From Candidatus Jettenia caeni (GTDB taxonomy: Bacteria > Planctomycetota > Brocadiia > Brocadiales > Brocadiaceae), in the NCBI GenBank assembly GCA_000296795.1, contig BAFH01000004.1:620001-684000 (forward strand): a DNA stretch of 64,000 nucleotides. The letters are read 5' to 3'. The notes under the pieces were generated by a model. That model saw only the letters and a list, made by a program, of their open reading frames with translations. It made no database searches and had not been told where the DNA came from. Positions 4,706 to 58,509 of this stretch are shown here, piece by piece. Position numbers and translations under genes: made by a program. Every line of letters starts with the position of its first letter. Within the stretch, counting starts at the first letter, position 1.

Positions 4706-4782
4706 ATTTGCACACAATGACCATGAATCGTTAACCTTTTTATATAATCTAAAATTAGGAAGTAATCATCAAAGGCGCAAAC

Positions 4783-7292: not shown

Positions 7293-7295
7293 TAT

Positions 7296-12308: not shown

Positions 12309-12323
12309 TAAGGAGGAATGCAT

Positions 12324-38850: not shown

Positions 38851-40074
38851 ATGGCAAAAATTTCAGAATATAGTTCTGTAGTCGGTTCTAGTACCATTGA
38901 AGAGTTACAATTATTAGCAGGCAAACTTCAGGAGAAAATTGTCCAAAATATCAATTCTACTGCAATGGGAGGTGGTGTTGCAGAACTTCTCAGTCGAATT
39001 GTGCCTTTGTTACAGGAATTAGGGGTAAATACCAGGTGGGATGTAATTAAAGGCGGGGAGAGTTTCTTCAATGTTACAAAGAAATTCCACAATGCCTTGC
39101 ACGGAAGGCCTGAAGAGATTAGTCCACAAATGTTTGAAGCATTTATGGAGACAAGCCAGCAAAACATTGAAGAACTTAAGGCATATGGAGATATCATGAT
39201 TATCCATGATCCACAACCTATTGCGCTTATTAAAAAAAAATTGTCTATGCCCGGCAGCAAGTGGGCATGGCGATGTCATATCGATATCTCATCCCCGGAT
39301 ACTCATGTATGGAATTTTCTAAAACCATTTATCCATCAGTATGATAGCGCGATTTTTTCTTCTCCAAATTTCTCACCAGCCTTACCTATCCGGCAATTTC
39401 TTATCCTGCCATCTATCGATCCTTTAAGCGATAAGAATAAAGATCTGCCTCAGGAAACAATCGATACGGTACTGGAAAAATATCAAATAAAGAAAGATAA
39501 ACCTATTATTACCCAGATCTCACGGTTTGACTATCTGAAAGATCCTATTGGCGTTATTGAAGCCTACCGTTTAGTAAAGAAGCGTATCGACTGCCAACTC
39601 ATTCTCGCCGGAGGAACAGCTACAGATGATCCGGAATCAAGCAAGGTTTTTGCAGACACAAAAGAAATAGCAGGAAACGATGCAGATATACATATTCTCC
39701 CTGTTCCATCCGGGAGTGACATAGAAATCAATGCGCTACAAAGGGCGTCCACCGTTATTATACAAAAATCACTGCGTGAAGGGTTTGGACTTACCGTAAC
39801 CGAGGCATTATGGAAGGCAAAACCGGTTGTCGCTTCCAGCACCGGTGGTATCCCATTACAAATCAGACATAAATATAATGGACTTTTATGCCATAGTATT
39901 TTTGGCGCCGCTCTCTCTATAAAACAGTTATTACATAACCCAGAATATGCTAAAAGGCTCGGTGAAAACGGACATGAACACGTTAAGCAGAACTTTATCC
40001 TTACTCGTCATCTCAAGGATTGCTTGCTTTTATTCTTATGCATGTATCATTCTGACGATATCATTCATTTATAA
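38851..40074 (+). CDS. TreT-like trehalose glycosyltransferring synthase (GT4)
   Basis: 407 residues with GT-B fold landmarks: TAMGGGVAELLSRIVPLLQE at the N-terminus (nucleotide-sugar loop), HDPQPIALI, ITQISRFDYLKDPIGVIEAY, and EGFGLTVTEALWKAKPVV (the E-x7-E motif). These fit TreT, which makes trehalose from NDP-glucose and glucose, often reversibly. It stands next to an ABC sugar importer and about 16 kb from otsAB, so trehalose or a related glucoside is the likely common substrate. The last 15 residues look unusual for the family. Confidence 0.8.
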   Translation: MAKISEYSSVVGSSTIEELQLLAGKLQEKIVQNINSTAMGGGVAELLSRIVPLLQELGVNTRWDVIKGGESFFNVTKKFHNALHGRPEEISPQMFEAFMETSQQNIEELKAYGDIMIIHDPQPIALIKKKLSMPGSKWAWRCHIDISSPDTHVWNFLKPFIHQYDSAIFSSPNFSPALPIRQFLILPSIDPLSDKNKDLPQETIDTVLEKYQIKKDKPIITQISRFDYLKDPIGVIEAYRLVKKRIDCQLILAGGTATDDPESSKVFADTKEIAGNDADIHILPVPSGSDIEINALQRASTVIIQKSLREGFGLTVTEALWKAKPVVASSTGGIPLQIRHKYNGLLCHSIFGAALSIKQLLHNPEYAKRLGENGHEHVKQNFILTRHLKDCLLLFLCMYHSDDIIHL

Positions 40075-40155: not shown

Positions 40156-40977
40156 ATGAATTATTACAAAAAAACTTTATTTTACCTGCTCGTAATTATC
40201 ATTACCGTTTGGAGTATATTTCCTTTCCTTTGGATTTTATTAACCTCTATCAAGCCTCCCTTTCAGATTATGCAATTACCACCGGTATTTCCCACTACCA
40301 TTACCCTTGCTGCATATAAGAATGTCCTTCTGAAAAGTTATTTTCCTCATTATTTATTCAATAGTTTTATGGTATCGTTATCAACGGTATTCATTACAAT
40401 ACCAATCGCACTTCTTGCGGCTTACAGTATATCACGCTTCTCATTCCGGAGAAAAACATCCATTCTCTTTATGATTATTATTTTATTTACCCTCCCTTCC
40501 ATAAGCCTTGTAGCTGCCCTTTATAAACTATTTTATACCTTAGGCTGGATTAATCTTCCCATCTCTCTTATCGTTACGTACAGTGCCAATAATTTCCCTT
40601 TGGCCTTTTTTCTTCTGGTAAAATATCTTGATAAGATCCCAACAGATATGGACTGTGCTGCCCTTATTGATGGATGCACCTATTTTCAAGCCTTTCGATA
40701 TATTATTACCCCCCTATCATTACCGGGGGTTATTTCTGCATCGGTTCTTATTTTTATTTTTTGCTGGAATGAATTTCTTTTTGCGCTTACTTTTACCCTT
40801 GATGAATCATCAAGATTAGCATCAGTAGGAATTGCATTATTTCAGGGTACCTTTGAGGTTCCCTGGGGTGATATTGCAGCAGCATCAGTTATAGTAACAC
40901 TTCCTCTTCTTCTGTTTTTGCTGTTTTTTCAAAAATATATTGTACAGGGACTAACAGCAGGGGCGCTTAAAGGATGA
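40156..40977 (+). CDS. Sugar ABC importer permease, MalG-like
   Basis: 273 residues with six hydrophobic segments and the inner-membrane EAA loop (DCAALIDGCTYFQAFRYIITPLSLPG). The C-terminal sequence FFQKYIVQGLTAGALKG is the classic MalG-type ending. It overlaps the ATPase gene by 4 bases (ATGA). With MalF (46123-46983) and MalK (40974-42029) it forms a complete CUT1 importer core. No free solute-binding protein gene is present; that role falls to the fused domain of the next large gene. Confidence 0.92.
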   Translation: MNYYKKTLFYLLVIIITVWSIFPFLWILLTSIKPPFQIMQLPPVFPTTITLAAYKNVLLKSYFPHYLFNSFMVSLSTVFITIPIALLAAYSISRFSFRRKTSILFMIIILFTLPSISLVAALYKLFYTLGWINLPISLIVTYSANNFPLAFFLLVKYLDKIPTDMDCAALIDGCTYFQAFRYIITPLSLPGVISASVLIFIFCWNEFLFALTFTLDESSRLASVGIALFQGTFEVPWGDIAAASVIVTLPLLLFLLFFQKYIVQGLTAGALKG

Positions 40978-42029
40978 AAATAAAATTACAAAATGTTATA
41001 AAACTCTATAACAACCATTACGTTGCTGTAAACAAGCTGAATTTAGATATATCCAGTGGTGAATTTCTTGTTGTGCTCGGCCCTAGCGGAAGCGGAAAAT
41101 CCACAACCTTGAATATGCTTGCTGGTTTGGAAATACCTACCTCCGGACATATATTCTTTAATGAACGTATCGTGAATAATGTCCCGCCCGGAAAAAGAGA
41201 TATCGCTCTGGTCTTCCAGAATTATGCCCTATACCCCCACATGAAGAGTTATGATAATATTGCCTTCCCCCTGAAAATACGGAAAGAAAAGGATTTACAC
41301 CATCGGGTTATAAAAACAGCTGAAATGCTGGGATTAAGCGCCTTACTGCATAAGTACCCAAAGGAACTCTCTGGTGGAGAAAGGCAACGGATAGCATTGG
41401 CACGGGCGCTCGTGAGAAATCCACAAGTCTTTCTCATGGATGAGCCACTCAGTAATTTAGACGCACGGCTTCGGCTCTCAGCGCGAGGGGAGTTAAAGAA
41501 ATTACAAAGACAGCGTAATATCACTACAATATATGTCACTCATGACCAAACAGAAGCACTTACTCTGGGAGATCGCATCGTAATTATGGATAAAGGCAAC
41601 TTACAACAGATAGGCACACCGGATGAAATATATCAGAAACCTCATAATACCTTTGTTGCCAGTTTCATTGGGGCTCCTCCCATGAACATGGTACAGGTGC
41701 AGAAATATGACACCCATTCTTTTATCCTTGGAAATACTACGATTGCATTTCCCACCCCTTTACCTGATCAAACAAATCTTATCCTTGGTATAAGACCTGA
41801 AAATCTGACAATAGTACCAGCAGATACACAAACCATTATACCATGTACCGTGGAACATATAGAATATCTCGGTAATGAATCGATAGGACATGTTACAATC
41901 AACCCTACGACAATATGGTACGCAAAGAATATGGGAGAAAGAATAAAGATAGGTGATGAAGCCGGCCTAAAATTTTCACCCAATGATGCTCACTGGTTCG
42001 ATTCTGTAACCAGAAAAAGGATAGCATAA
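40974..42029 (+). CDS. Sugar ABC importer ATPase, MalK/UgpC-like
   Basis: 351 residues with Walker A GPSGSGKST, Q-loop FQNYALYPHM, signature LSGGERQRIALARALV, Walker B VFLMDEPLSNLD, H-loop YVTHDQ and a C-terminal TOBE domain (about 240-350, with IGAPPMNMV and LGIRPENL). These are diagnostic of CUT1 MalK-type ATPases, which may be shared among importers. It is coupled to malG by ATGA and followed after 138 bases by the ATPase/binding-protein fusion. Confidence 0.94.
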   Translation: MKIKLQNVIKLYNNHYVAVNKLNLDISSGEFLVVLGPSGSGKSTTLNMLAGLEIPTSGHIFFNERIVNNVPPGKRDIALVFQNYALYPHMKSYDNIAFPLKIRKEKDLHHRVIKTAEMLGLSALLHKYPKELSGGERQRIALARALVRNPQVFLMDEPLSNLDARLRLSARGELKKLQRQRNITTIYVTHDQTEALTLGDRIVIMDKGNLQQIGTPDEIYQKPHNTFVASFIGAPPMNMVQVQKYDTHSFILGNTTIAFPTPLPDQTNLILGIRPENLTIVPADTQTIIPCTVEHIEYLGNESIGHVTINPTTIWYAKNMGERIKIGDEAGLKFSPNDAHWFDSVTRKRIA

Positions 42030-42167: not shown

Positions 42168-45100
42168 ATGAACTGGTATCAGCTTCCTGTAAGAGAAATA
42201 GTGCAAAAACTTGGAACATCCGATGAGGGATTGTCTGATGAGGAAGTCAAAGAACGCCTTCAGCACTATGGTCCAAACAGACTTGCAGAAGAGGAAAAGA
42301 TAAGCAAAATAAAGATCCTCCTTCACCAGTTTACCAGTCCCCTCATTTATATCCTTTTCGTAGCAGCATTCGTTACCTTTCTCCTGAAAGAATTTATTGA
42401 TACCAGTGTAATTATGGCAGTAGTATTCCTTAATACAATTATTGGTTATATCCAGGAATTTAAGGCAGAACAGAGTGTCAGGGCACTCAAAAAAATGCTG
42501 ATACCGAAGGCAAAGATTTTACGGAATGGACAAGAAAAAGAAATAAACAGCGAAGAACTGGTACCAGGTGACATCGTTCTTCTTGCATCAGGAGGCAAGG
42601 TACCGGCAGATCTAAGACTTTTTAAGACTCTTGAGTTAAAAATTGATGAATCCATGCTTACCGGTGAATCAATCCCTGGAGAAAAAACTACATCACCAAT
42701 ACAAAAGGATAATCTAACGCCAGGAGACCAGAAAAATATGGCCTTCACAGGAACAATTGTTGTAAGTGGAAGAGGGAGAGGCATTGTTACCGAAACGGGA
42801 AATAAAACGGTTCTTGGTCAAATTGCAAAGAACGTTAGAGAAACGGTGAAAATAAAAACACCTCTTCAGAATAAACTGGAGCGGTTTGCAAAAATCATAG
42901 GAGTTGTTATTGTTGGACTTTCTGGCATTCTCTTTGGTATAGGCTTCTTAGCGCATGGATCAGATATTTCTGAAATGTTTATGGTTGCTGTTGCTACTGC
43001 CGTATCAGCAATACCTGAGGGTCTTCCTGTTGCGGTAACCATTACTATGGCAATCGGTGTATCAAGAATGGTAAGGAGAAATGCTATTATAAGAAAGCTA
43101 CCCGCAGTGGAAACCCTGGGAAGTACTACCGTCATATGCTCTGACAAGACAGGAACACTAACAAAGAATGAAATGACCGTGAAACTCATTTATAATGAAA
43201 ATCATATCTATGAAGTAACCGGAACAGGATATAATCCAAAGGGTGAGATTCTTCGTGATGAGATGCCTGTTCCCCACAAAGACAAGGAAGATCTCCTGCT
43301 TGTTTTACGAATAGGATTACTTTGTAATGAATCTCATATTTATCTTGAAGATAGCCAATACAAAATTGATGGAGACCCTACAGAAGGAGCGCTTATTGTA
43401 TCAGCAATAAAGGGAGATCTTAACCCTGAAGAAGAGAGGAAAAATTATCCACAAATTGCGATTATACCTTTTGAATCGGAACGCGGTTATATGGCTACCC
43501 TTAACAAGCACCGAAACAAAAAATGTATTTTCGTAAAGGGCGCCCCGGAAAAGATAGTAGACATGTGTACCAAATTTAAAACAAATAGCAGCTCTCCGAA
43601 AAAAGAGATCCTTCAGGCTGCAAATACTTTTGCTAAAAAAGGTTTACGAGTACTCGCATTTGCTTATAAAGAAACGCCGAATGACAAGGAAGAACTTATT
43701 CACCGGGATATAGAATCAGGATTAACCTTTGCAGGTCTTCAGGGTATGATCGATCCGCCAAGACAAGAAGTAATAGAAGCAATAGAGGGGTGTAGACAAG
43801 CAGGAATCAGAACCATAATGATAACCGGTGACCATGCAATCACTGCAGTATCTATCGCAAAAGAGCTTGGATTAGGTGGACAGGACGAGAAGGTTTGCAC
43901 AGGAAAAGAGCTTGAAACGATGAGTGATGAAGAACTTTTTCATACGGTAAAAAACGTATCGGTATTTGCAAGGGTAGCGCCTCACCATAAGTTAAGAATA
44001 ACAAATCAATTAATAAAACAGGGTGAGGTTGTAGCGATGACAGGCGACGGAGTTAATGATGCACCTGCCCTCAAGGCTGCTCATATTGGTATTGCCATGG
44101 GCAGAACGGGAACCGATGTTGCGAAAGAGGCCTCCGATGCTGTCCTTACTGATGATAATTTTGCAAGCATTTTTGCAGCGGTTGAAGAGGGAAGGGTGGT
44201 GTATGATAATATCAAGAAGGTCACCCTCTTTCTGATATCATGCGGTTTTGGAGAACTGATTGCCATTATCACCACCGTTGCAATGGGTCTCCCTATACCC
44301 TATATAGCGGTACAGATACTCTGGTTGAACCTCGTAACAAATGGGCTTCAGGATATTGCTCTTGCCTTTGAACCAGGAGAAAAAGGAGTCTTACTGAGAC
44401 CTCCAAGGCATCCGAAAGAACGTATTCTTACAAGCATTATGATACAAAAGACTGTTCTTATGGGGCTTGTTATGGCTGCCGGAACGGTCATTCTCTACCT
44501 ATACCATCTCAATAAAGGGGCATCATTAGAACAGGCTCGTACCGTAGCCCTCACAACCATGGTCTTTTTCCAATTCTACCAAGCGCTTAACTGCCGTTCC
44601 GAATTTCAATCCATTTTCAGGAAGAACCCCCTGAGTAACCCGTTTTTATTCTTCAGCATGATTGCTGCCCTCTTTGCCCATCTTGCAGTGTTATATGTAC
44701 CGGTTCTTCAATGGGTTTTTAGAACAGTTCCTCTTACCAGAGAAGAATGGATTGATATTGGAGTAATAACCGTAGCAATAGTTATTGCAGTTGAGATTGA
44801 GAAATTGATAAGAAGAAGAAAAAGGAAAACAAGAGCAACGATTGCAGGATTTAAAACGGGAAAAGTATTTGCGCCAGCCAAAATACTTCTGATATCTGTT
44901 TGTATTTTCCTTGCATTATGGACTACCTATACATTCTTCAGGCCCAAAAGAGAAGATGAAGTTGTTTTTAGTATCGGGTGTGGCGCCGAAGAAATCGGAA
45001 TAATAAGGAGACTCATAGATACATTTGAAAAGGAAAATCCTGCGATACATGTTAAATTAAACATCCTTCCTGCGCCTACAGATCAGCAGCACCATTACTA

Positions 45101-46142
45101 TCTTACTACCTTTGGGGTAAAGTCTGAAGATATTGACGTGATGAGAATTGATACTATCTGGATTGCAGAATTTGCGTCAGCAAGATGGCTGGAGCCATTA
45201 GAAACATATATCAATCCTGGATATAAAGCATCATTTATTCCCATAATTGATGTAATAAACATATACCAGGATCGTTTATACGCCATTCCCTGGAATGCCG
45301 ATATTGGACTTTTCTATTATCGGGACGATTTATTAAAGAAATACCAGGCGTCTCCGCCGCAAACATGGGAAGAGCTTATTAAAACAGGCGCAAAAATTTC
45401 CTCCATGGAACCTGTATATGGATACCTCTGGCAAGGGAAACAATATGAGGGATTGGTCTGTAATTTTATTGAATTCATTGGCAGTAACAAGGGAGAAATA
45501 TTCGATGCACAGGGAAGAGTAGTTGTTAATTCGATACAAAATCACACAGCTCTCAATCTCATGCATGATTTACTATGGAAGTATCAGATATCACCGCCAA
45601 ATACCTACAGCGAACTTATGGAAGAGCCCACTCGTCATCTATTTCAACAGGGTAGAGGTCTTTTTTTAAGAAATTGGACTTATGTGTGGAGTCTTTTTCA
45701 GACAGACCAGTTTATGAGGAATAAGGTAGGAGTATCTCAACTGCCTAAATTCTCCGGTGGACGCCCTGCTCCTGTATACGGAGGATGGCATCTCGCTATA
45801 AATGCTAACTCAAAAAAGAAGAAGCAGGCATGGCAACTCGTTAAATTCTTAAGCTCACACAGGGTGCAAAGAGAACTATCCAGGAGACTATCCTGGGCGC
45901 CGACACGTACCTCATTATATAAAGACCCGAGACTGCTCCGAAGATTGCCATTTCTTTCAATCGTGCATGCATCATTTCCAAACGTTCAAATACGGCCCAA
46001 CCTTCCTTATTATCAGTGGGTGAGCGACATCATACAAAAACATGTTAACAGGGTATTATCGAACCAGGAGAGCAGCAAACAAGCGTTACAATCTATTCAA
46101 ACAAAACTCGAACGGATGAGAAATGAATTTACCAAAGACTAA
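42168..46142 (+). CDS. Fusion of P-type cation ATPase and family-1 sugar-binding protein, copy A
   Basis: 1324 residues. Residues 1 to about 895 form a complete P2-type ATPase: Thr165-Gly-Glu-Ser, TM4 PEGLP (Glu284), phosphorylation Asp326 in DKTGTLT, hinge TGDGVND (625-631) and TM6 NLVTNGLQD, where Asn725 replaces the Asp of SERCA pumps. After TM10 comes a Lys/Arg-rich cytoplasmic loop, an extra helix at about 906-924, and then a full extracellular solute-binding domain (about 930-1324) including LNILPAPTDQQHHYYLTT, AIPWNADIGLFYY and WEELI. The extra helix puts the binding domain outside, as an importer needs. The gene lies between malK and malF and overlaps malF by 20 bases. The cation is unknown. 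Confidence 0.93.
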   Translation: MNWYQLPVREIVQKLGTSDEGLSDEEVKERLQHYGPNRLAEEEKISKIKILLHQFTSPLIYILFVAAFVTFLLKEFIDTSVIMAVVFLNTIIGYIQEFKAEQSVRALKKMLIPKAKILRNGQEKEINSEELVPGDIVLLASGGKVPADLRLFKTLELKIDESMLTGESIPGEKTTSPIQKDNLTPGDQKNMAFTGTIVVSGRGRGIVTETGNKTVLGQIAKNVRETVKIKTPLQNKLERFAKIIGVVIVGLSGILFGIGFLAHGSDISEMFMVAVATAVSAIPEGLPVAVTITMAIGVSRMVRRNAIIRKLPAVETLGSTTVICSDKTGTLTKNEMTVKLIYNENHIYEVTGTGYNPKGEILRDEMPVPHKDKEDLLLVLRIGLLCNESHIYLEDSQYKIDGDPTEGALIVSAIKGDLNPEEERKNYPQIAIIPFESERGYMATLNKHRNKKCIFVKGAPEKIVDMCTKFKTNSSSPKKEILQAANTFAKKGLRVLAFAYKETPNDKEELIHRDIESGLTFAGLQGMIDPPRQEVIEAIEGCRQAGIRTIMITGDHAITAVSIAKELGLGGQDEKVCTGKELETMSDEELFHTVKNVSVFARVAPHHKLRITNQLIKQGEVVAMTGDGVNDAPALKAAHIGIAMGRTGTDVAKEASDAVLTDDNFASIFAAVEEGRVVYDNIKKVTLFLISCGFGELIAIITTVAMGLPIPYIAVQILWLNLVTNGLQDIALAFEPGEKGVLLRPPRHPKERILTSIMIQKTVLMGLVMAAGTVILYLYHLNKGASLEQARTVALTTMVFFQFYQALNCRSEFQSIFRKNPLSNPFLFFSMIAALFAHLAVLYVPVLQWVFRTVPLTREEWIDIGVITVAIVIAVEIEKLIRRRKRKTRATIAGFKTGKVFAPAKILLISVCIFLALWTTYTFFRPKREDEVVFSIGCGAEEIGIIRRLIDTFEKENPAIHVKLNILPAPTDQQHHYYLTTFGVKSEDIDVMRIDTIWIAEFASARWLEPLETYINPGYKASFIPIIDVINIYQDRLYAIPWNADIGLFYYRDDLLKKYQASPPQTWEELIKTGAKISSMEPVYGYLWQGKQYEGLVCNFIEFIGSNKGEIFDAQGRVVVNSIQNHTALNLMHDLLWKYQISPPNTYSELMEEPTRHLFQQGRGLFLRNWTYVWSLFQTDQFMRNKVGVSQLPKFSGGRPAPVYGGWHLAINANSKKKKQAWQLVKFLSSHRVQRELSRRLSWAPTRTSLYKDPRLLRRLPFLSIVHASFPNVQIRPNLPYYQWVSDIIQKHVNRVLSNQESSKQALQSIQTKLERMRNEFTKD
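45192..45251 (+). repeat. 60-base tract identical between fusion copies A and B
   Basis: 45192-45251 and 51659-51718 are identical (gagccattagaaacatat...cccataattgat), although the two genes differ at many positions on both sides. A further 41-base identical block follows shortly after (from 45282 in copy A). This lies in the sugar-binding domain, within the block encoding WLEPLETYINPGYKASFIPI. It suggests recent gene conversion. Confidence 0.85.
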
Positions 46143-46983
46143 GCTTGCTTACTTATTTTTATTACCTGGAATACTCCTGATACTGGCATTTAGCTTTATT
46201 CCATTCGTAGATACTATTATAACTTCCTTCCAAAGTGCAAAACTTATTTTACCAAAAGAACGATTTGCGGGATTTGATAATTATCAGGATATTGTAATCG
46301 ATACCCGCTTCTGGTACTCACTCTTTCTTACGCTTTTCTATACTTTTGTCTCAATATGCCTGGAAGCTATCCTGGGATTATGTTTTGCTCTTATCATGAA
46401 TCGTCTATCACCCAGAAGCAGCTTTTTAAGAGTCCTAATCCTTATCCCTTGGACAATCCCAACGGTAGTAACAGCGAGAATATGGCAATGGATGTTTGAT
46501 TATAATTTAGGAATTATAAATTATCTTTTTGAAATTTTTGGTTTTTCAAGGGTAAATTGGCTAGGAAAGCCTTTTTTAGCGTTTTTTTCAATTGTCATTG
46601 CAGATGTCTGGAAGACTGCCCCCTTTGTCGCCATAATTGTTTTAGCAGGTCTCTCTGCCATCCCGCAGGAGATATATAAAGCATCTGCTATTGACGGTGC
46701 AAATAGCTGGCAGCGATTCCGTTATATAACATTACCCTTGATATTGCCAATAGTAGGTGTAGCCATTATGTTCAGAGCTATAGATGCCCTGCGAATATTT
46801 GATCTCGTTTATGTACTTACCGGCGGCGGTCCAGGAGGTTCAACGGAAACCTTATCTGTCTATGCTTATAAACTGTTCTTTTATAAGGGGGATTTTGGAC
46901 AAGGAGCAGCTACATCAGTAATAATCTTACTCTTAGTTGCCGGCTTTGGATACTTCTATACAAAAAAATCCTTTGAAAAGTAA
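46123..46983 (+). CDS. Sugar ABC importer permease, MalF-like
   Basis: 286 residues with six hydrophobic segments and the EAA motif EIYKASAIDGANSWQRFRYI, followed by TLPLILP. YVLTGGGPGGSTETLSVYAY is the highly conserved CUT1 MalF/UgpA segment. It pairs with MalG at 40156. Its start codon lies within the 3' end of the fusion gene (20-base overlap), so the fusion and permease are made together. A 14-codon relic homologous to its N-terminus lies at 52590-52631. Confidence 0.92.
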   Translation: MNLPKTKLAYLFLLPGILLILAFSFIPFVDTIITSFQSAKLILPKERFAGFDNYQDIVIDTRFWYSLFLTLFYTFVSICLEAILGLCFALIMNRLSPRSSFLRVLILIPWTIPTVVTARIWQWMFDYNLGIINYLFEIFGFSRVNWLGKPFLAFFSIVIADVWKTAPFVAIIVLAGLSAIPQEIYKASAIDGANSWQRFRYITLPLILPIVGVAIMFRAIDALRIFDLVYVLTGGGPGGSTETLSVYAYKLFFYKGDFGQGAATSVIILLLVAGFGYFYTKKSFEK

Positions 46984-47450
46984 GAGAACCGTATGCTGGC
47001 TGAAATAGAAACAACCATTCAATTTACTCTGTTTATAATTGCATTGTGGTAAGAGCCAACTCCCTGTTGGCGACCGTGGAACTTGCAAATAAGTTATACA
47101 TTGCCAAGCTCGATCAGGGGACGGATTCTACCAAAATATGATTAACAGTATTTATTTGTGTATCTTTATTTACATCCTCTGGCAAGCCTGCTCCCTTGTA
47201 TTCACACAATCTTCGTATGATACTTGCATTCCCTTACGGTATGTGCTAAACTCCTCTTCTTTTGATACTCCTTTCTTATGGACTGGCTACCGAAATAACT
47301 TCAGTACCATCCTAAGAGAGGAGTTGTTTTTTTTAAATACTTCAGCTTAGCTTTTTGCTATTCTTCCCGGCATAGGTTGAGGGTTTAGCATAGAGAATAT
47401 CTCCAGAGAGTAATACGATATGCTAACACATCACGAAAGGTCTCTTAAAA
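46984..47450. other. Intergenic gap before antiporter
   Basis: No supported gene or clear terminator. A short hairpin CCAACTCCCTGTTGG occurs near 47059. The 47138-47350 open frame has no family features. The antiporter promoter presumably lies here. Confidence 0.4.
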
Positions 47451-48647
47451 ATGGAAGTAGCTGAATTTTTTTTAAAATTTTTAATAATTTTGGTATCTGC
47501 AAAATGCTTTGCGGAAATGTTCGCCTTTTTACGCCTGCCCGCTGTATTAGGCGAAGTTATTGCTGGTATTATCATAGGACCAAGCCTTCTCGGGATTATA
47601 CAGGTTGATGCAACTCTTTACCTACTGGCAGAAATAGGTATTTTACTTCTTCTCTTTGAGGTTGGACTTGAAACAGATGTTGGACAAGTTGTAAAGGTTG
47701 GTGTACAATCATTTTTAGTTGCCATCACCGGCGTTGTTGCCCCTGCAGTCGCAGGTTTTTGGATAAGTAAATATATCTTTCATTTACCCCTCCTGGTTTC
47801 TCTCTTTATTGGAGGAACAATTGTCGCAACAAGTATTGGGATAACCATACGGGTACTTGTTGATATTAAAAAACATCAGACAAAGACTGCAAAAATTGTT
47901 CTTGGGGCAGCGGTTCTCGATGATATTATTGGTGTAGTTATTTTAGCAATACTCTATGATTTTGCCGTAAAAGGAGAGGTCCGGGTGATGGATGTAAGCA
48001 AAGTATTGGGGTTTATTGCCGTCTTTTTATTGCTTGCCCCTGTAATCACGAAGCTCCTTGTACCTCTTATTTCCAAATTATCATCGGGCAGTAAAACGAA
48101 TGGGATGATACCGACAATTATTATCTCCTTAATCTTAGTATTAGCTATTATCTCTCATAAAATCGGTGCACCGGGAATCCTCGGTTCTTTTGCTGCTGGT
48201 ATTGCCCTTGCAAGGAGGTTCTTTCTCCCTCTTGGTTCAACGATAGACCATTACAGTCATGGTATGGCTGAAAAGATTGAGAAACACATGAAGCCTATCA
48301 TTGATTTGTTTGTTCCTGTTTTTTTTGTGGTTGTAGGTGCATCCATGAATCTTAAGGTTATTGACTTTACATCCGTAACGTTCTGGCAAATGGCAGGGCT
48401 CTTAACGATCATAGCTATCGTTACAAAGATGATCAGTGGACTATGGGTCAAGGGTGGTCTCAAAACAAAACTTTCTACAGGTCTTGCAATGATCCCCCGG
48501 GGAGAAGTTGGTTTAATATTTGCTGAAGTAGGAAAGAAGAGTGGTATATTCGACGATTTGATTTATGCAATTATTGTCTTTATTGTTGCCTTAACAACAC
48601 TATTCGCACCTATCTTACTGAGATTTTTTATGAAAGGTGAAGAATGA
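47451..48647 (+). CDS. Kef/CPA2-type cation:proton antiporter
   Basis: 398 residues, a normal-length Na_H_Exchanger domain with 12 or 13 helices: LRLPAVLGEVIAGIIIGPSL, LLLFEVGLETDVGQV, GAAVLDDIIGVVILAI, ILGSFAAGIALARRF and MIPRGEVGLIFAEVGKK. VLDDIIG carries the two ion-site aspartates. It lacks the long N-terminal extension of the relative at 29093-31540. It overlaps fusion copy B by 4 bases (ATGA), so antiporter and P-type ATPase are co-translated and may form a cation cycle. Confidence 0.92.
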   Translation: MEVAEFFLKFLIILVSAKCFAEMFAFLRLPAVLGEVIAGIIIGPSLLGIIQVDATLYLLAEIGILLLLFEVGLETDVGQVVKVGVQSFLVAITGVVAPAVAGFWISKYIFHLPLLVSLFIGGTIVATSIGITIRVLVDIKKHQTKTAKIVLGAAVLDDIIGVVILAILYDFAVKGEVRVMDVSKVLGFIAVFLLLAPVITKLLVPLISKLSSGSKTNGMIPTIIISLILVLAIISHKIGAPGILGSFAAGIALARRFFLPLGSTIDHYSHGMAEKIEKHMKPIIDLFVPVFFVVVGASMNLKVIDFTSVTFWQMAGLLTIIAIVTKMISGLWVKGGLKTKLSTGLAMIPRGEVGLIFAEVGKKSGIFDDLIYAIIVFIVALTTLFAPILLRFFMKGEE

Positions 48648-51600
48648 ACTGGTATCAGCTTTCCATAAAAGAAACACTGCAAAGACTTCAAACATCTGAA
48701 GATGGACTGACTGACGAAGAAGCCAAAGAACGCCTTAAGCAGTATGGACAAAATAAACTCGCTGAGGAAGAAAAGATAAGCAAAATTAAAATCTTTTTCC
48801 ATCAGTTCACCAGCCCCCTTGTATATATCCTCCTTGTTACCGCGGTTGTAACATTTCTTTTTAAAGAATACATAGACGCTACGGTAATTATAGCTATCGT
48901 GGTTATTAATGCAATAATTGGTTACATTCAGGAGTTTAAGGCTGAACAAAGTGTAAGGGCGCTCAAGAAGATGGTAGTACCAAAGGCACGGGTACTCAGG
49001 AATGGTAAAGAAAAAGAGATACACAGTGAGGAACTGGTGCCGGGTGATATTGTTCTACTTACATCTGGTGTAAAGGTGCCAGCGGATCTCAGATTAATAA
49101 GAACAGTTGAATTGAGGGTCGAGGAGGCCATGCTTACGGGAGAGTCAGTTCCTGCTGAAAAGGTAGTCGTACCAATAAAAGAGGACAATTTGACTCCAGG
49201 CGATCAGAGGAATATGGCATTCATGGGTACCATTGTTATAAGTGGAAGGGCAAAGGGTGTTATTGTAGAAACGAGTTCAAAGACCGTTCTCGGCAGTATT
49301 GCCCAAGAAGTTAAGCAGGTAGGTGTTACAAAAGCACCCCTCCAGAAAAAGATAGAAAACTTCGCAAAGGTTATCGGACTCATTACCCTGGCAACCTCAG
49401 TTCTGCTTTTCATTATCGGTGTTATTGTCGGCGAAAGCGTTAAAGATATGTTTATGACGGCTGTTGCTGCCACCGTGGCGGCGATACCAGAGGGGCTTCC
49501 CATCGTTGTAACCATAGCAATGGCTATCGCTGTGGCAAGGATGGCAAGGCAAAATGCCATCGTAAGGAAGCTTCCCGCAGCAGAGACCCTCGGAAGTACT
49601 ACGGTCATATGTTCAGACAAAACCGGAACACTCACAAAAAACGAAATGACCGTAAAGCTTGTCTACGATGGAAAACATACCTATGAGGTAACAGGAAGCG
49701 GATATGAGCCAAAAGGTGAAATACTCCATGAGGATATGCCCATCGAAGCAAAGGAAAAAAAGATACTCCTTCAGGTTTTACGCATAGGACTTCTCTGCAA
49801 CGAGTCAAATATTTATGAGGAAGAAGATCAATACAAGGTTGACGGTGACCCTACAGAGGCAGCCCTTATTGTTTCTTCAATGAAGGCAGGTCTTAGCCAG
49901 GAAGAAGAAAAAAGGCACTATCCACAAATTGGAATCATACCCTTTGAGTCTGAACGCGGTTACATGGCAACGCTCCATAAACATGGAGGGAAAAAATTCA
50001 TATTCGTTAAAGGGGCACCCGAAAAGGTACTTGACATGTGTACCGCATGCATGGCGGCTGATAACCTTAACAAGAAAGAGATATCACATATTGCTGCCAA
50101 TTTTGCCAAAGAAGGCTTACGGGTACTTGCTTTTGCCTATAAAGAAGTTCCCCATGATACGGAAGAGATTAGTCACCATGATATAGAATCAGACCTAATC
50201 CTTGCCGGTCTCCAGGGGATGATGGACCCACCAAGACCAGAATCCATCGAAGCCGTTAAAGGGTGTAAAAAAGCAGGGATCAGGGTTGTAATGATTACAG
50301 GAGATCATGCCGTTACCGCAAAGGCCATTGCAAAAAGGCTGGATATCATTGGTGAAAATGCAGACGTTCTCACGGGCAAAGAACTCAATGAAATGAACGA
50401 CTCAACACTTTTTGAAAAGGTCAAAACAGTCTCGATATATGCACGGGTAGCGCCAGAGCATAAACTGAGAATAGTAAAACAGTTAAAAAAACACGGCGAG
50501 ATAGTTGCAGTGACCGGTGACGGCGTTAACGATGCGCCAGCCCTCAAAGAGGCACATATAGGCATCGCCATGGGGAGAACGGGAACTGATGTTGCAAAAG
50601 AGGCATCAGATATGGTTCTTACAGACGATAACTTTGCAACCATGTTTAATGCCGTAAAAGAGGGACGTGTCCTATTCGATAACATTCGCAAGGTTGTCTT
50701 TTTTCTTATACCAACAGGTATAGCAGCGATACTCTCCATTATTGCTACCATAATTCTGGGCGTACCAATGCCCTATGTCCCTACCCAGCTTCTCTGGTTA
50801 AATATTGTTACAAATGGTTTGCAAGATATTGCCCTTGCCTTTGAACCGGGAGAAAAAGGAGTAATAGACAGGCCGCCCCGGAATCCAAAGGAAGGAATAA
50901 TGTCTCGTGTTCTTATTGAAAGAACTATACTTGTAAGCTTCGTAATCTCTCTCGGTGTTATCTTTAATTTCATCTCTGCTTTACATGAAGGGGTACCCAT
51001 AGAAAAGGCAAGGACAACGGCACTAACGACTATGGTATTTTTCCAATTTTTTCAGGCATGGAATTCCCGCTCCGAGACCCAGTCTGTCTTCCGGATGAAC
51101 CCCATAAGTAATCCCTTTCTCTTTTACAGCATGATTGCAGCCATTTTCGCCCAGCTTGCAGTATTATACGTACCCCCCCTTCAGTGGATTTTCAGGACAC
51201 AACCGCTAACATCAAGTGAATGGATACATGTGGGAATAGCAAGTGTTACCATTATCGTTATTATTGAATTTGACAAATGGATAAGAAGAAGGAAAGGAAA
51301 AGCAGCCGTTATAGAAGCCGGAAGAAGAAAAATACTCACACCAGCAAATATACTTCTCTCATTCGTTTGTATTTTCCTTATGCTATGGATTGCTTATACA
51401 TTTTTCAGGCCTAAAAAGGAGGATGAAATTGTTTTTAGCATTGGAGCTGAAAGCAAGGAGATTGATTTCATAAGAAATCTCTTAAACGATTTTGAAGATA
51501 AAAACCCTTCTGTAAAAGTTAAACTAAATATCCTTCCCGCACCTACTGATCAGCAACACCATTATTATCTCACTACTTTAGGAGCCAGATCAACTGACAT

Positions 51601-52609
51601 TGATGTATTGAGAGTTGATACGATTTGGATTGCCGAATTTGCATCAGCAGGATGGTTAGAGCCATTAGAAACATATATCAATCCTGGATATAAAGCATCA
51701 TTTATTCCCATAATTGATAAGACAAACAGATACCGTGATCGTTTATATGCCATTCCCTGGAATGCCGATATTGGACTTTTCTATTATCGACGGGATTTAT
51801 TAAAGAAATATCAGGTATCTCCACCGAAAACATGGGAAGAGCTTATTGAAATAGGTACAAAAATTTCTCCCACTGAGCCTGTGTATGGGTATCTCTGGCA
51901 GGGAAAACAATATGAGGGATTGGTATGTAACTTTATTGAATTTATCGGAAGTAACAATGGAGAGATTATCAACGAAGAAGGAAAGATAGTTGTTAATTCT
52001 CCACAAAATAAAATAGCTTTAGACCTTATGCATGATTTAATATGGAAATATAGGATATCGCCACCCAATACCCCCGGTGAACTTATGGAAGAATCTTCAA
52101 GGCATCTTTTTCAACAAGAAAAAGGCCTTTTTCTCAGAAACTGGACTTACGTATGGGATTTAAGTCAGAGAGACCAATCAACGAAAGGTAAGATAGGCGT
52201 AACCCGGCTGCCAAGATTCCCGGATGGAAAATCAACATCGGTATATGCAGGCTGGCACCTCGCCATAAACACCAATTCAATGAAGAAGGAACAAGCATGG
52301 CAACTTATTAACTTCTTAACCTCGCGCCGGATACAAAAAGAGTTGGCCTTACATTTAGCATGGGCACCGACACGAAACGCATTATACAAAAATCCAAGGT
52401 TGCTTCGAAAATTACCTTTTCTCCCCATAGTAGAAGAATCTTTTCACACTATTCAAATACGACCCAATCTCCCATATTATCAGCGGATCAGCGACGTCAT
52501 ACAAAATGAGGTTAATAAAGTGTTATCGAATCAGTTAGACAGCCAAAAAGCATTGCAAACTATTCAGACAGAATTAGAACGGGTTCAACATGAATTTATC
52601 AAAGACTAA
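48644..52609 (+). CDS. Fusion of P-type cation ATPase and family-1 sugar-binding protein, copy B
   Basis: 1321 residues, same architecture as copy A and by eye about two thirds identical or more over the ATPase. It has TGES, PEGLP, Asp325 in DKTGTLT, TGDGVND, NIVTNGLQDIALAFEP, a basic loop, an extra helix (NILLSFVCIFLMLWIAYTFF), then the sugar-binding domain. Both halves are intact and all catalytic residues are kept, so both copies appear to be under selection. It follows an antiporter instead of malK. Its 3' end retains the first codons of a malF gene, so it derives from a duplication of the malK-side block. Confidence 0.93.
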   Translation: MNWYQLSIKETLQRLQTSEDGLTDEEAKERLKQYGQNKLAEEEKISKIKIFFHQFTSPLVYILLVTAVVTFLFKEYIDATVIIAIVVINAIIGYIQEFKAEQSVRALKKMVVPKARVLRNGKEKEIHSEELVPGDIVLLTSGVKVPADLRLIRTVELRVEEAMLTGESVPAEKVVVPIKEDNLTPGDQRNMAFMGTIVISGRAKGVIVETSSKTVLGSIAQEVKQVGVTKAPLQKKIENFAKVIGLITLATSVLLFIIGVIVGESVKDMFMTAVAATVAAIPEGLPIVVTIAMAIAVARMARQNAIVRKLPAAETLGSTTVICSDKTGTLTKNEMTVKLVYDGKHTYEVTGSGYEPKGEILHEDMPIEAKEKKILLQVLRIGLLCNESNIYEEEDQYKVDGDPTEAALIVSSMKAGLSQEEEKRHYPQIGIIPFESERGYMATLHKHGGKKFIFVKGAPEKVLDMCTACMAADNLNKKEISHIAANFAKEGLRVLAFAYKEVPHDTEEISHHDIESDLILAGLQGMMDPPRPESIEAVKGCKKAGIRVVMITGDHAVTAKAIAKRLDIIGENADVLTGKELNEMNDSTLFEKVKTVSIYARVAPEHKLRIVKQLKKHGEIVAVTGDGVNDAPALKEAHIGIAMGRTGTDVAKEASDMVLTDDNFATMFNAVKEGRVLFDNIRKVVFFLIPTGIAAILSIIATIILGVPMPYVPTQLLWLNIVTNGLQDIALAFEPGEKGVIDRPPRNPKEGIMSRVLIERTILVSFVISLGVIFNFISALHEGVPIEKARTTALTTMVFFQFFQAWNSRSETQSVFRMNPISNPFLFYSMIAAIFAQLAVLYVPPLQWIFRTQPLTSSEWIHVGIASVTIIVIIEFDKWIRRRKGKAAVIEAGRRKILTPANILLSFVCIFLMLWIAYTFFRPKKEDEIVFSIGAESKEIDFIRNLLNDFEDKNPSVKVKLNILPAPTDQQHHYYLTTLGARSTDIDVLRVDTIWIAEFASAGWLEPLETYINPGYKASFIPIIDKTNRYRDRLYAIPWNADIGLFYYRRDLLKKYQVSPPKTWEELIEIGTKISPTEPVYGYLWQGKQYEGLVCNFIEFIGSNNGEIINEEGKIVVNSPQNKIALDLMHDLIWKYRISPPNTPGELMEESSRHLFQQEKGLFLRNWTYVWDLSQRDQSTKGKIGVTRLPRFPDGKSTSVYAGWHLAINTNSMKKEQAWQLINFLTSRRIQKELALHLAWAPTRNALYKNPRLLRKLPFLPIVEESFHTIQIRPNLPYYQRISDVIQNEVNKVLSNQLDSQKALQTIQTELERVQHEFIKD

Positions 52610-52631
52610 ATTGCCTTACCCCTTCTTATTG
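52590..52631 (+). pseudogene. Relic of a malF gene after fusion copy B
   Basis: From ATG 52590 the frame reads MNLSKTKLPYPFLL, which aligns with MNLPKTKLAYLFLL at the intact malF (46123). Similarity stops at 52631, and the frame then runs through unrelated residues to a stop at about 52671. The start overlaps the fusion gene by 20 bases, exactly as in the intact operon. This marks the right edge of the duplicated block. Confidence 0.85.
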
Positions 52632-52653
52632 ACTGCTCTAAGGGAGTACAATT

Positions 52654-54888
52654 TTAGCTTACAGGCAGAATAATTGAAATGCTGGTAAATTTTCCCTCAG
52701 CACTATCAATGGTAAGCTTACCACCATGATCATTTATAATATTATGGCAAATACTTAAACCTAATCCTGTTCCTTCACCAGCAGGTTTCGTCGTAAAAAA
52801 TGGGTTCATTACTTTATCTCTTATATGAGCAGGTATGCCAGTACCGTGATCATAAAAAGTAATCTTTACATAAGAATGACTATTTATAGCTATTTTTTCA
52901 CCTAAAATTTCAAGGATCTTATCATCGTGCCGTCCCGGGTATTTTTGATTGAGGGCATATCGTGCATTATTCGTAAGGTTCAAGAAGACCTGGTGAATTT
53001 CTTGGGAATTCGCAAGTATTTTTGGTAAGTCTTCAGGCATATCTAACTTTATTTTGGTACCTTCTTTTCGTAACTGTGGTCCTGTAAGAATAAGGGCATC
53101 AGATACTATTTCATGTACACTCATTATACTTTGCTCCTTTTTATCCTTAGTCCTAGCAAAAGAAAGGAGTTTACTAACAATATGAGCGATACGATCCCCC
53201 TCTTTTATAATCCTGCGAGTAAGATCTTTTTCTCTACTTCCTTCACTCGCTTTATTAGATAACATCTGAGCACAATTAATAATACCTGTTATGGGATTAT
53301 TGATCTCATGAGCTACGCCTGCTGCTAATTCACCTATTAGCGCAAGATGTCTAGACAGTTGTATCTCCTTTTCCAGATTTACTTTTTCAGTGATATCCAA
53401 GGAAGCGCCTAATATACCAACACACTCACCCTTTTCATTTTTTATAGGAATTTTAATAGTATGAACAATTAATTCTTGTCTATTTATAATATATGTATCT
53501 TCTATATCCTTTCTGTACCCCGATTCTATAACCTCCCTGTCATCTGTTCTATATTTTTCACTAAGTTCTTTAGAGAAAAAATCATAATCTGTTTTTCCTG
53601 TAATTTCTTCAGGCATTATATGTAAATCCCTGGCGTAATTTTCATTACAGGATTGATATACCAGATTTCTATCCTTATAGAATATTCTTAAAGGAAGATT
53701 TTCATAGAGAAACCGGCACTTACTTTCACTCACATGCAGCACTTCTGCAATCTGTTTAAGTTCATTGATTTTATTTGCGAGTTCTTCTGCCATAATATTA
53801 AAACTCTTACTCAAATTGCCAATTTCATCATTACGAATTATATTTATTCTGTAATCTAAGTCCCCTTTTGTAAATTTCTCTGTTACATCCCTTAAATCTA
53901 CAATAGGTCTTGATGTTGAAAGGGCAAAGGTAACACCAACACTGGTAACTACAGCAGCGCAAATTATTCCTAAAGTTAAGACAATAGTATTCGATGTCTT
54001 TAAAGGTGCAAATACCTCTGATTTGTCTATCTTTGCCATAAGTATCCAATTATACTCTGGTATATCCATAGAGACACCAATAACAGGTATACCTCTGTAG
54101 TCCGGGTAAATACCGCCCCATTCTTTATTTTCTTCAATGATCTTACGAATTGGCATTGTATTTATCGTTTGCTTAAGGGGAAGATTTTCTACAAACTTTG
54201 ATTTAGTAATCATTGTTTTATTATCTTTATTTACTAAATATACTTCGCCAGTATTTCCTATTCCTATAAGATTAGCAGTAATCTCATTTAGAAATGAAAG
54301 GTTGTAGGTATTGATAATGGCGCCTAGTGGCTTAGTATCATTGTCTGAAATAATCGGTGCTGAGATACATATGCAATTGATATCATAGTAAGAAGAAAAA
54401 TGAGGCTGACTTACAAAGGTCTCACCATAACGCTTCATTATTCCTTGTATGAATGCTTCATCATGCGATATATCTCTACCAATTAACTTCTCATTCGTCG
54501 ATGAAATAACCTTGCCAAATTTGTCTACAATAGTTACTGCAACAAGATGGGGTTGTGCTGGCACAATCTTTAAGGCATTTGAAAGATAATTATTTAAATT
54601 AGTTACCGTGTTTTGCATGGAAACTTCATTCTGAGTAATTGTTCTGAGTTCTTCTCTTATAAAGTTATCAATACTAAAATCAGATGTATGTATTCGCTCT
54701 GCCTCTATACAGTCCAAAACGTGAAGCCTTTTTGCTTGTACTATCATTTGTAAATCTTGAAAGGTTTTTTGTCTTAAAATACTTCTGGTATGAAAATAGT
54801 ATATTGTAGTAATTATTACGATCGGTATAAGTGAAATAGAAAGACCAAAAGTAAGCATTTTAGATTTAATTGATGAGAATATTTTCAT
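52654..54888 (-). CDS. Membrane sensor histidine kinase (dCache-HAMP-PAS-HisKA-HATPase)
   Basis: 744 residues: TM1 (about 13-31), a double-Cache-like extracytoplasmic domain (about 35-300), TM2 (about 304-328), HAMP (to about 382, with DEIGNLSKSFNIMAEEL), a PAS domain (about 390-510, ending GILGASLDITEK), the H-box GELAAGVAHEINNPITGI, N-box NLTNNARYAL, and G-boxes DHGTGIPAHI and GEGTGLGLSI. All kinase motifs are intact. No response regulator gene is adjacent, so it is an orphan. It converges on fusion copy B and may sense the solute handled there; that is inference. Confidence 0.92.
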   Translation of the reverse strand: MKIFSSIKSKMLTFGLSISLIPIVIITTIYYFHTRSILRQKTFQDLQMIVQAKRLHVLDCIEAERIHTSDFSIDNFIREELRTITQNEVSMQNTVTNLNNYLSNALKIVPAQPHLVAVTIVDKFGKVISSTNEKLIGRDISHDEAFIQGIMKRYGETFVSQPHFSSYYDINCICISAPIISDNDTKPLGAIINTYNLSFLNEITANLIGIGNTGEVYLVNKDNKTMITKSKFVENLPLKQTINTMPIRKIIEENKEWGGIYPDYRGIPVIGVSMDIPEYNWILMAKIDKSEVFAPLKTSNTIVLTLGIICAAVVTSVGVTFALSTSRPIVDLRDVTEKFTKGDLDYRINIIRNDEIGNLSKSFNIMAEELANKINELKQIAEVLHVSESKCRFLYENLPLRIFYKDRNLVYQSCNENYARDLHIMPEEITGKTDYDFFSKELSEKYRTDDREVIESGYRKDIEDTYIINRQELIVHTIKIPIKNEKGECVGILGASLDITEKVNLEKEIQLSRHLALIGELAAGVAHEINNPITGIINCAQMLSNKASEGSREKDLTRRIIKEGDRIAHIVSKLLSFARTKDKKEQSIMSVHEIVSDALILTGPQLRKEGTKIKLDMPEDLPKILANSQEIHQVFLNLTNNARYALNQKYPGRHDDKILEILGEKIAINSHSYVKITFYDHGTGIPAHIRDKVMNPFFTTKPAGEGTGLGLSICHNIINDHGGKLTIDSAEGKFTSISIILPVS

Positions 54889-55359
54889 CTGAACACCTAT
54901 ATATAATGAAATAAAGATTATCTTTGTTATTATAAGACTTAAATCAATGTATAACTATCGTGGAACAAATCAGGTTTTCGAGATTTGAGTACCGATAATT
55001 TGAGAATTTTCTGCCAAAAGGGTATGTAATTTCTCTTGACAGAGACTGATGTCCTGAAGGAAGTTTAAGTACACTATCCTAAACTTTTCGTATGTATCAT
55101 ACTATGTATTATAAAGGGGCTTTTCGTAAAAGAACTTCTATTATTTGCTCACAAGTTTAGCCTAAATCGAGAAGAAGAACGGTATGGTTTTGATTCTGTC
55201 TGCGTTACGTTGAAATTGTTCTTTTTTGTACTCTTTTGAGTTCATTACGTTGCTCTGAATTCGGAAAATCTCCTATAATTAATGTGTAACAAATATTCAT
55301 ATGAATTGTAAGAAAAATTTTCGAAAAATAAATGCTTTTAGTTATAACAAGGAGTATAT
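54889..55359. other. Intergenic gap upstream of kinase and psiE
   Basis: No gene, repeat or hairpin that I can support. It holds the divergent promoters of the histidine kinase and the PsiE-like gene. A fragment reading LTETDVLKEV before a stop near 55064 may be a trace of an old gene, but it is too short to call. Confidence 0.35.
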
Positions 55360-56224: not shown

Positions 56225-57697
56225 ATGATATCTACGCGTGAGTCATTAAAAGAGCTGATTTCGAGCAAGCTGAAAGGTTACAAGCTTATAGTGGTATCGA
56301 ATCGTGAACCTTACATTCACAATTATGTTGGTGATGAGATTCATTATATTGTTCCTGCAAGTGGAATGGTTACGGCTTTGGACCCTATTATTCGTGCAGA
56401 AGGCGGAACATGGGTTGCTTATGGAAGTGGAGACGCCGATAAGGAGGTTGTCGACAGGAACGACCGCATTGCAGTACCACCAGATCATCCACAATATACC
56501 CTTCGAAGGGTTTGGCTTACCCGTGAGGAGGAAGAACGGTTTTATTACGGGTTTTCCAATGAGGCGCTCTGGCCTCTGTGCCATATTGTGTATGTCAAAC
56601 CGAAATTTAATGAGGCAGATTGGTTAGCCTATAAGTCGGTAAATCAAAAGTTTGCCAAGGTTATTCTGGAAGAGGCAGGAAATGAAAAAGCGTTTGTTTT
56701 CATTCAGGACTATCATTTTACCCTGCTTCCGAAGATGCTCAAGGAGATTAGACCTGACTTGCTTGTTGCACAATTCTGGCATATCCCGTGGCCAAATAGA
56801 GAGGCGTTTCGCATATGTCCATGGGGTCAAGAAATTCTTGAGGGACTTTTAGGAAATGATCTTTTAGGATTTCACATACAATACCATTGTAATAATTTCC
56901 TTGATACGGTAGACCGGAATCTGGAGTCAAAGATAGATTATGGAATATTTGCAGCTACAAAGGGTGGAAAGACAACCCATATTCGTCCCTTCCCCATTAG
57001 TATTGATTTTGATGAATTAAACATGCAGGCACAGGGAAAAGAGGTTGAGTCTGAGATGGTCCGTATCAGGAAAGAACTGGGTTTAAAGGGACAGATTATT
57101 GGGATAGGACTGGACCGGGTAGATTATACCAAGGGCATTTCAGAACGATTTATGGCGATTGACCGATTTCTTGAAAAGTATCCTGAGTACCGAAATAAAT
57201 TTACATTTGTTCAGGCTGGCACCTTAAGCCGGATTCATATTGCAGACTACCGGGATTATAACGATACGATCTACGATCAGATGAATGAGATAAATCATAA
57301 ATACCATAGCGGCAGATGGACGCCAATACGGTTAGTAAAATCACATTTTCATCGGGTAAGTATTCAGGCGTTATACCGTTTATCGGACGTTTGTATCGTG
57401 AGTTCCCTGCATGATGGTATGAATCTGGTTGCAAAGGAGTTTGTAGCCTCCCGTTCCGATGAGCTTGGCGTGCTTTTACTCAGCCGGTTTACCGGTGCTG
57501 CTTCAGAACTTACCGGCTGCATTGAAATTAATCCGTATGCCACAGATACCTTTGCAGAGGCGATAAAGATAGCCATAGAAATACCTGAGGAGGAAAAGAG
57601 AAAAAGAATGCAGCGAATGAGAAAATACGTATCTGAACATAACGTGTACCATTGGAGTCAAAATATTGTAAACGAATTGACGAAATTACACCAATGA
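56225..57697 (+). CDS. otsA: Trehalose-6-phosphate synthase-like GT20 enzyme
   Basis: 490 residues, GT20 fold. It would transfer glucose from NDP-glucose to glucose-6-phosphate. Seen: VVSNREPYIHN, FIQDYHFTLLPKML, FWHIPWPNREAFRICPWG, GNDLLGFHIQYHCNNFL, GLDRVDYTKGI and SLHDGMNLVAKEFVASR. The N-terminal loop (VPASGMVTAL) differs from classic OtsA GGL, so a relative such as glucosylglycerol-phosphate synthase is possible. otsB overlaps it by 4 bases (ATGA), supporting a two-step synthesis of trehalose. Confidence 0.85.
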   Translation: MISTRESLKELISSKLKGYKLIVVSNREPYIHNYVGDEIHYIVPASGMVTALDPIIRAEGGTWVAYGSGDADKEVVDRNDRIAVPPDHPQYTLRRVWLTREEEERFYYGFSNEALWPLCHIVYVKPKFNEADWLAYKSVNQKFAKVILEEAGNEKAFVFIQDYHFTLLPKMLKEIRPDLLVAQFWHIPWPNREAFRICPWGQEILEGLLGNDLLGFHIQYHCNNFLDTVDRNLESKIDYGIFAATKGGKTTHIRPFPISIDFDELNMQAQGKEVESEMVRIRKELGLKGQIIGIGLDRVDYTKGISERFMAIDRFLEKYPEYRNKFTFVQAGTLSRIHIADYRDYNDTIYDQMNEINHKYHSGRWTPIRLVKSHFHRVSIQALYRLSDVCIVSSLHDGMNLVAKEFVASRSDELGVLLLSRFTGAASELTGCIEINPYATDTFAEAIKIAIEIPEEEKRKRMQRMRKYVSEHNVYHWSQNIVNELTKLHQ

Positions 57698-58509
57698 GAT
57701 ATCTGTTCGATAATATTCAAACGGTTCATGAACTTCTTCATAGCAAGAAAAGGATACTCCTTTTATCCGATTATGACGGCACCTTAACGCCGATTCAGGA
57801 GCATCCGGATCTCGCTATACCTTCAGAAAAAGTTCGTGAACTTCTCATAAAATTTTCTTCTCACAAAGCATTTCGTTTAGGCATAGTTACAGGACGTTCT
57901 TTACAGCAAATAAAAAAATTAATTAATATACAAAAAGCGCTGTATGTTGCAAACTATGGAGTAGAAATAGAAGGACCTGATATATATTTCATTAGCCCAG
58001 AAGCTAAAAAGGCACGCTATATCCTTTGGAACATTTACCTACAACTCTTGAAGTCTCTAAGACACATTGAAGGAGTATATATAGAAGATAAAGGTCTTTC
58101 CATCAGTTTGCATTACCGTTTAGTAAAAACAACCCATGATATGGAATATATCACGAAAACCTTTCATACTATAACAAAACCTTTTTTAGACAAGGAAATG
58201 CTTTGTCTAAGCACAGGAAAGATGGTTTATGAAATACGGCCTCCCGTGAAGTGGAACAAGGCAACAAGAATTACATGGCTGTTGGCTCATTATTTCCCCC
58301 CAGAATTCAGTAACGATGCACTCATTATATATTTAGGAGATGATAGTGCAGATAAAGAGGTATTTACAGCACTAAACGAAAAAGGATTAAAGATTTTTGT
58401 AGGAGAGCCGCCAAATACATCTTCGGCAGATTACTTTGTTCATTCCCCTGAAGAGGTAGTTGCTTTTTTAGAGTATCTCTATAAACAGAAATCACAAACT
58501 CCTTTATGA
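57694..58509 (+). CDS. otsB: Trehalose-6-phosphate phosphatase
   Basis: About 271 residues of HAD fold: ILLLSDYDGTLTPIQEHPD (nucleophile Asp in DxDGT), GIVTGRSLQQIKKLI, NYGVEIEGPD and YLGDDSADKEVF. The frame extends back to 57652, but ATG 57694 overlaps the otsA stop as ATGA and gives the expected N-terminus. It dephosphorylates trehalose-6-phosphate, or a related sugar phosphate if OtsA is a GgpS type. It converges with the next gene, overlapping by 6 bases. Confidence 0.9.
   Translation: MRYLFDNIQTVHELLHSKKRILLLSDYDGTLTPIQEHPDLAIPSEKVRELLIKFSSHKAFRLGIVTGRSLQQIKKLINIQKALYVANYGVEIEGPDIYFISPEAKKARYILWNIYLQLLKSLRHIEGVYIEDKGLSISLHYRLVKTTHDMEYITKTFHTITKPFLDKEMLCLSTGKMVYEIRPPVKWNKATRITWLLAHYFPPEFSNDALIIYLGDDSADKEVFTALNEKGLKIFVGEPPNTSSADYFVHSPEEVVAFLEYLYKQKSQTPL

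Follow-up and report, generated by a model that had tools for sequence, protein, structure and literature searches.

Gene organisation of the locus

The 64,000-nucleotide stretch of DNA analysed here (the window) belongs to a Candidatus Jettenia caeni genome of 4.09 Mb in four contigs, and contains a trehalose locus inside which lie two long genes, A and B. The features of the locus, with the evidence for each, are:

38851..40074, + strand, TreT-like trehalose synthase (Pfam TreT_GT1, 180 bits)
40156..40977, + strand, MalG-like permease (Pfam BPD_transp_1; synteny in relatives)
40974..42029, + strand, MsmK/UgpC-like ABC ATPase (profile matches)
42168..46142, + strand, gene A, coding for 1324 aa in which a P-type cation ATPase (aa 1-885) precedes a linker plus membrane helix (~aa 900-918) and a C-terminal TMBP-like sugar-binding domain (aa 906-1324) (open reading frame; Pfam; hydropathy; orthologues in two congeners)
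46123..46983, + strand, MalF-like permease (open reading frame; Pfam; synteny)
47451..48647, + strand, Na+/H+ exchanger, directly before B (Pfam Na_H_Exchanger)
48644..52609, + strand, gene B, 1321 aa, architecture as in A but with a P-type ATPase of a different lineage (open reading frame; Pfam; P-type ATPase tree)
56225..58509, + strand, OtsA-like (56225-57697) and OtsB-like (57652-58509) trehalose genes (NCBIfam)

Gene A is a single open reading frame with matches to Cation_ATPase_N, E1-E2_ATPase, Cation_ATPase_C and SBP_bac_1 (Pfam), and its orthologues in two congeners are of 1324 and 1322 aa. The SBP_bac_1 match scored 112.6 bits in A and 125.1 bits in B, both above the cut-off of 26, and both proteins have the P2-type cation ATPase core (Pfam PF00689, PF00690 and PF00122) with its phosphorylation motif; the pump motifs DKTGT, TGES and GDGVND are present. 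The initial annotation had treated A and B as two receptors and overlooked that the Pfam matches make the whole proteins P-type ATPase fusions. At the junction, both proteins have a linker of basic character together with an additional hydrophobic helix (A ~900-918, B ~903-921, by hydropathy). As free-standing relatives of the binding domain start with a helix of the same kind, the junction helix is probably the former membrane anchor of the binding protein and, as an additional helix of the pump, it would put the binding domain outside the membrane.

Over the whole pump part, A and B resemble the SPCA/PMR1-type P2A Ca2+-ATPases (8iww; 610 bits) and Listeria LMCA1 (6zhf; 592 bits). They differ from these in the fused sugar-binding domain, in scores against the PMR1-type Ca2+-ATPase model TIGR01522 (756.7 and 753.9 bits) that lie below its curated cut-off of 798.3, and in one residue of the motif WLNLVTNGLQD (~44313-44370, A aa ~716-734; WLNIVTNGLQD at the same place in B), where Asn is aligned to an Asp of SPCA1. 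We take this Asp to be a Ca2+ ligand in SERCA/PMR1, and so the ion carried by the two pumps may be one other than Ca2+.

The first 20 nt of the MalF-like gene lie within the end of A, and a like overlap with the binding-protein gene is seen in many relatives. Trehalose is the likeliest ligand of the A and B sugar-binding domains, because TreT-, OtsA- and OtsB-like genes and ABC permease genes adjoin them. The closest solved relative of these domains, the trehalose/maltose-type binding protein TMBP of Thermococcus litoralis (1eu8), is presumably encoded in a TreT-linked operon with MalF, MalG and ABC ATPase genes, the same kinds of gene that adjoin A. TMBP is, we assume, a separate protein, whereas in A and B the binding domain forms the C-terminal part of a P-type ATPase fusion. 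A histidine-kinase-like gene accompanies B and the Na+/H+ exchanger in the block from ~46984 to 56110; this block is missing from the congener G017, where (on a single contig) an otsA-like gene comes straight after MalF. In the other congener, G016, the exchanger is present and the contig end falls inside the start of a B-like gene with an early stop and a frameshift; with the contig end so near, this damage may reflect either decay or poor sequence.

Distribution of the fused genes

Fusion of a P-type ATPase to the sugar-binding domain was found in 4 of the 33 family genomes searched. Full-length fused orthologues of A occur in G016 (97%) and G017 (95%); no full-length B was found in either of these congeners, and intact B occurred in one genome only among those searched. 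The fifth fused gene, F, is in G022, where a tandem pair of B-lineage P-type ATPase genes was observed (L040:9886-16775), the second one fused to the binding domain. The remaining family genomes with this binding domain encode it as a free-standing reading frame of ~380-460 aa, and in G021 a P-type ATPase gene ends 36 nt before the free-standing binding-protein gene. A search of the phylum matched 30 of 392 genomes; in just five of these did the match span the junction, with stops in the case of G021, and the fusion was absent from 79 further loci of named genomes (L080-L158).

The P-type ATPase halves of A and B fall into two separate lineages, each with unfused members elsewhere: B with F (supports 100/99) and the A genes with a G021 gene (90/100; tree of 18 rows). 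The binding-protein halves of A and B form one clade together with those of F and G021. The linkers of A and B are too divergent to decide between a single and a double origin of the fusion. A literature search by title and start of abstract, covering few subscription journals, returned no description of a fusion between a P-type ATPase and a solute-binding protein, and a term search of a review of P-type ATPases (PMC10654040) gave no such description either.

A tract of near-identity in the sugar-binding domains

Outside one short tract, A and B are ~69-73% identical. The features of the tract are:

45192..45400, + strand, conversion tract in A, the inferred donor side (codon scan; informative-site segment 45194-45400)
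45192..45251, + strand, 60-nt run identical in A and B (codon alignment; same also in A of G016 and G017)
45282..45322, + strand, 41-nt run identical in A and B (codon alignment)
51659..51867, + strand, conversion tract in B, the inferred recipient (90% identical to the A tract)

The two runs of 60 and 41 bases reported initially were exact at these positions, and the cited peptides ETYINPGYKASF and AIPWNADIGLFYY were found in the tract. These runs are the longest identical ones in 1,324 aligned codons (next 20, 20 and 18 nt), and runs of at least 60 nt arose in 0 of 20,000 codon-column shuffles, whether the shuffling took in the whole gene or was confined to the C-terminal part. Among degenerate codons specifying the same residue, 456/858 (53%) were identical gene-wide, compared with 50/54 in the best segment (45192-45380). 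The windowed maximum was reached in 0/20,000 shuffles for each of the 30-, 40- and 60-codon windows, and in 12/20,000 for the 20-codon window. The sliding-window analysis of synonymous divergence that had been proposed as a check thus gave a sharp dip at the tract, covering ~45192-45400; the interval originally assigned, 45192-45350, was rightly placed but somewhat short, the likelihood segment on informative sites running from 45194 to 45400. When the A tract was compared with the whole genome, only two matches were obtained, A itself and B 51659-51867. Between the two runs (45252-45281), A and B are identical at 22/30 nt (73%), and this lower likeness suggests either that the event was patchy (two patches) or that A changed later.

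Comparison with relatives

Sites counted as informative if the A consensus and F disagree there and B matches either of them. Within 45194-45400, B agreed with A at 70/78 such sites, compared with 104/251 in the rest of the domain, a proportion as high being found in 0/500 shuffles; weaker excesses of B=A sites lie at 44880-44969 (17/25) and 45960-46139 (26/42). Trees of the binding domains (21 rows) changed with the tract. Without it, B grouped with F (86/82) and the A genes fell outside; the tract alone joined B to all three Jettenia A genes (100/100); and the whole domain, tract sites retained, gave A and B as sisters (89/89). In an AU test with the tract excluded, sisterhood of A and B was not rejected (p 0.205, lnL difference 5.63), so the tract itself, more than a secure background tree, carries the discordance of the trees. 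Twelve residues are shared by A and B and absent from all 17 other binding proteins of the family; nine of these residues are clustered in the tract, at aa 1013-1074.

Support for the gene conversion first suggested for this tract comes from the synonymous dip, from trees that change with the tract, from the change points at informative sites and from the clustering of residues private to A and B. We consider it highly probable (about 0.9) that a short interlocus gene conversion between the two diverged paralogues gave rise to the tract, ~200 bp within the sugar-binding domain of B having been replaced by the corresponding A-lineage sequence.

Source, direction and age of the event

The likely route would be repair of RecA type: a break or gap within B would have been mended on A, ~6.5 kb upstream, as the template, and ~200 bp of A-lineage sequence would thereby have passed, in one event or as two patches, into B.

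Two explanations that involve no copying between genes fit poorly. Constraint on the coding sequence, by the ligand cleft together with a codon or RNA element, might be invoked because a portion of the sugar-binding lobe is encoded here and the residues are conserved in places; yet in the same tract silent-site identity is ordinary between relatives (identical same-residue codons: A-F 18/34, A-G006 12/36), and the nine A/B residues there differ from all 17 other family binding proteins. When 63 gene pairs were scanned, as a control, for their best segment of synonymous identity, the three A-B pairs scored 15.4-17.8 at the tract, whereas those of the 60 other pairs with their best segment overlapping it scored 6.2 at most. 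Constraint is thus very improbable as the explanation. An assembly artefact, with reads of A placed in B, might be suspected as intact B is known from a single genome, but B differs from the A of the same genome at 17/189 tract positions. Furthermore, the A of this genome departs from both congeners at 7 sites within 45192-45400, and of these B shares the congeners' state at 5, that of A at 1 and neither at 1. As B mostly does not have the private changes of A, it appears to carry an older A sequence, which argues for an old event and against a simple assembly mix-up; we regard an artefact as the least probable of all the explanations.

The remaining alternatives accept copying and alter its direction or its source. 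B is the likelier recipient because its likeness to its closest relative, F, breaks down inside the tract: nucleotide identity between B and F is 0.73 upstream, 0.62 in the tract and 0.775 downstream. The comparison of F with the G021 protein shows no such fall (0.67, 0.71 and 0.69), and a drop in B-F identity without one in F-G021 is the prediction of an A-to-B transfer. Conversion in the opposite sense, with B as donor to A in the common ancestor of the Jettenia genomes, would account for the tract being in all three A genes and sits well with the Asp at position 1045 of A, which is found in 64/66 more distant homologues. It would, however, leave B-F identity in the tract at ~0.75 rather than the 0.62 observed. 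This argument is weakened as A-F identity also drops in the tract, from ~0.70 to 0.61, so that the stretch may simply evolve faster; the direction is therefore something we infer, with B-to-A transfer the unlikely choice. Similarly unlikely, to about the same degree, is that the donor was not the resident A but DNA of another Jettenia cell, acquired by homologous recombination. The donor could have been the A gene of another strain, as the B tract fits the A genes of all three genomes about equally (172, 173 and 173/189 nt), and a further binding-protein gene of the family appears mosaic: that of G013 is 0.88-0.95 identical to G006 over its first ~75 codons and 0.83-0.97 to G011 over most of the rest. 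Apart from A-B, only the G013-G006 pair reached so high a score in the control scan (18.8), and it did so elsewhere than at the tract, at the gene start (44/45 codons). The two genes of that pair lie at L043:3581-4855 (G013) and L044:5289-6569 (G006). The mosaic is possibly interspecies recombination or a MAG chimera; if it is real, the same gene has recombined between species too, and a foreign donor for B is conceivable. Against this, a resident A 6.5 kb away makes such a transfer unneeded, and the G013 case lies near the end of a MAG contig, where it could be an artefact of binning or assembly.

For conversion of B by the A lineage, dating gave a broad range: the 50/54 identical codons have a 95% interval of 0.82-0.98, to be compared with 0.966 between the A of this genome and that of G016, and 0.902 with that of G017. 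Given the older A sequence that B appears to carry, the event would be about as old as the split between the sampled Jettenia species. With intact B in one genome only, direction and age are both drawn from few sequences.

Putative sugar pocket

The best solved relative of the binding domain by sequence is 1eu8, the top PDB hit for both A (326 bits) and B (326.8 bits). One codon of the tract was of particular relevance to the pocket:

45300..45302, + strand, codon of Asp1045 of A (both A and B have Asp here, matching chain position 122 of 1eu8 in the alignment)

We take this chain position to be Asp123 of TMBP, a sugar contact. The equivalent residue is Asn in 17/17 other binding proteins of the family. 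By the proposed conversion, B would have received Asp1045 of A and neighbouring residues, in a region that aligns with the sugar cleft. In mycobacterial LpqY, Asn134 is a trehalose contact, and replacing it by Ala increases the Kd from 72 to 9061 uM (PMC7949145). Residue spacing suggests that Asn134 may be the equivalent of Asp1045, as LpqY Asp80 and Asn134 are 54 residues apart and the matching pair of Asp residues in 1eu8 53 apart. The transfer may therefore have changed the putative pocket of B to match that of A, and the earlier proposal that conversion keeps both proteins binding the same sugar is plausible. An AlphaFold model of A residues 691-1324 (12 aligned rows) had a mean pLDDT of 47.6, too poor to use, so that the pocket argument is one of sequence alignment.

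Comparison with known conversions and possible function

Domain-limited conversion between diverged bacterial paralogues is already known, and what is less ordinary here is its carrier, a fusion of a P-type ATPase and a sugar-binding domain. The RF1/RF2 release factor genes, old and diverged bacterial paralogues, show partial, domain-limited conversion (PMC4530459), which like that of A and B was detected by sliding windows and trees; RF1/RF2 conversion takes in nearly a whole domain, in both directions, in essential translation genes, whereas that of A and B covers ~200 bp of a transporter-like fusion. The tufA/tufB genes of Salmonella, which differ at 12 positions in 1185 nt and in which mismatch repair shapes the tracts (PMC5485169), are alike in showing non-reciprocal transfer between duplicate genes. 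They are nearly identical, however, and recombination between A and B, at only ~69-73% identity outside the tract, would be much less favoured. The tract is a well-resolved case of short-tract conversion between bacterial paralogues only ~70% identical, and one that would alter amino acids in a probable ligand pocket.

An ion pump/sugar receptor fusion in the trehalose locus of an anammox bacterium could link cation homeostasis to compatible-solute uptake. A fuller scheme, in which two sugar-linked cation pumps of different lineages with tethered trehalose-binding domains serve one trehalose importer, and in which conversion moved the Asp so that both bind the same sugar, is speculative and we think it rather improbable.

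The window also contains another pair of tandem related stretches, at 11840-12676, which are 73% identical over 300 nt.
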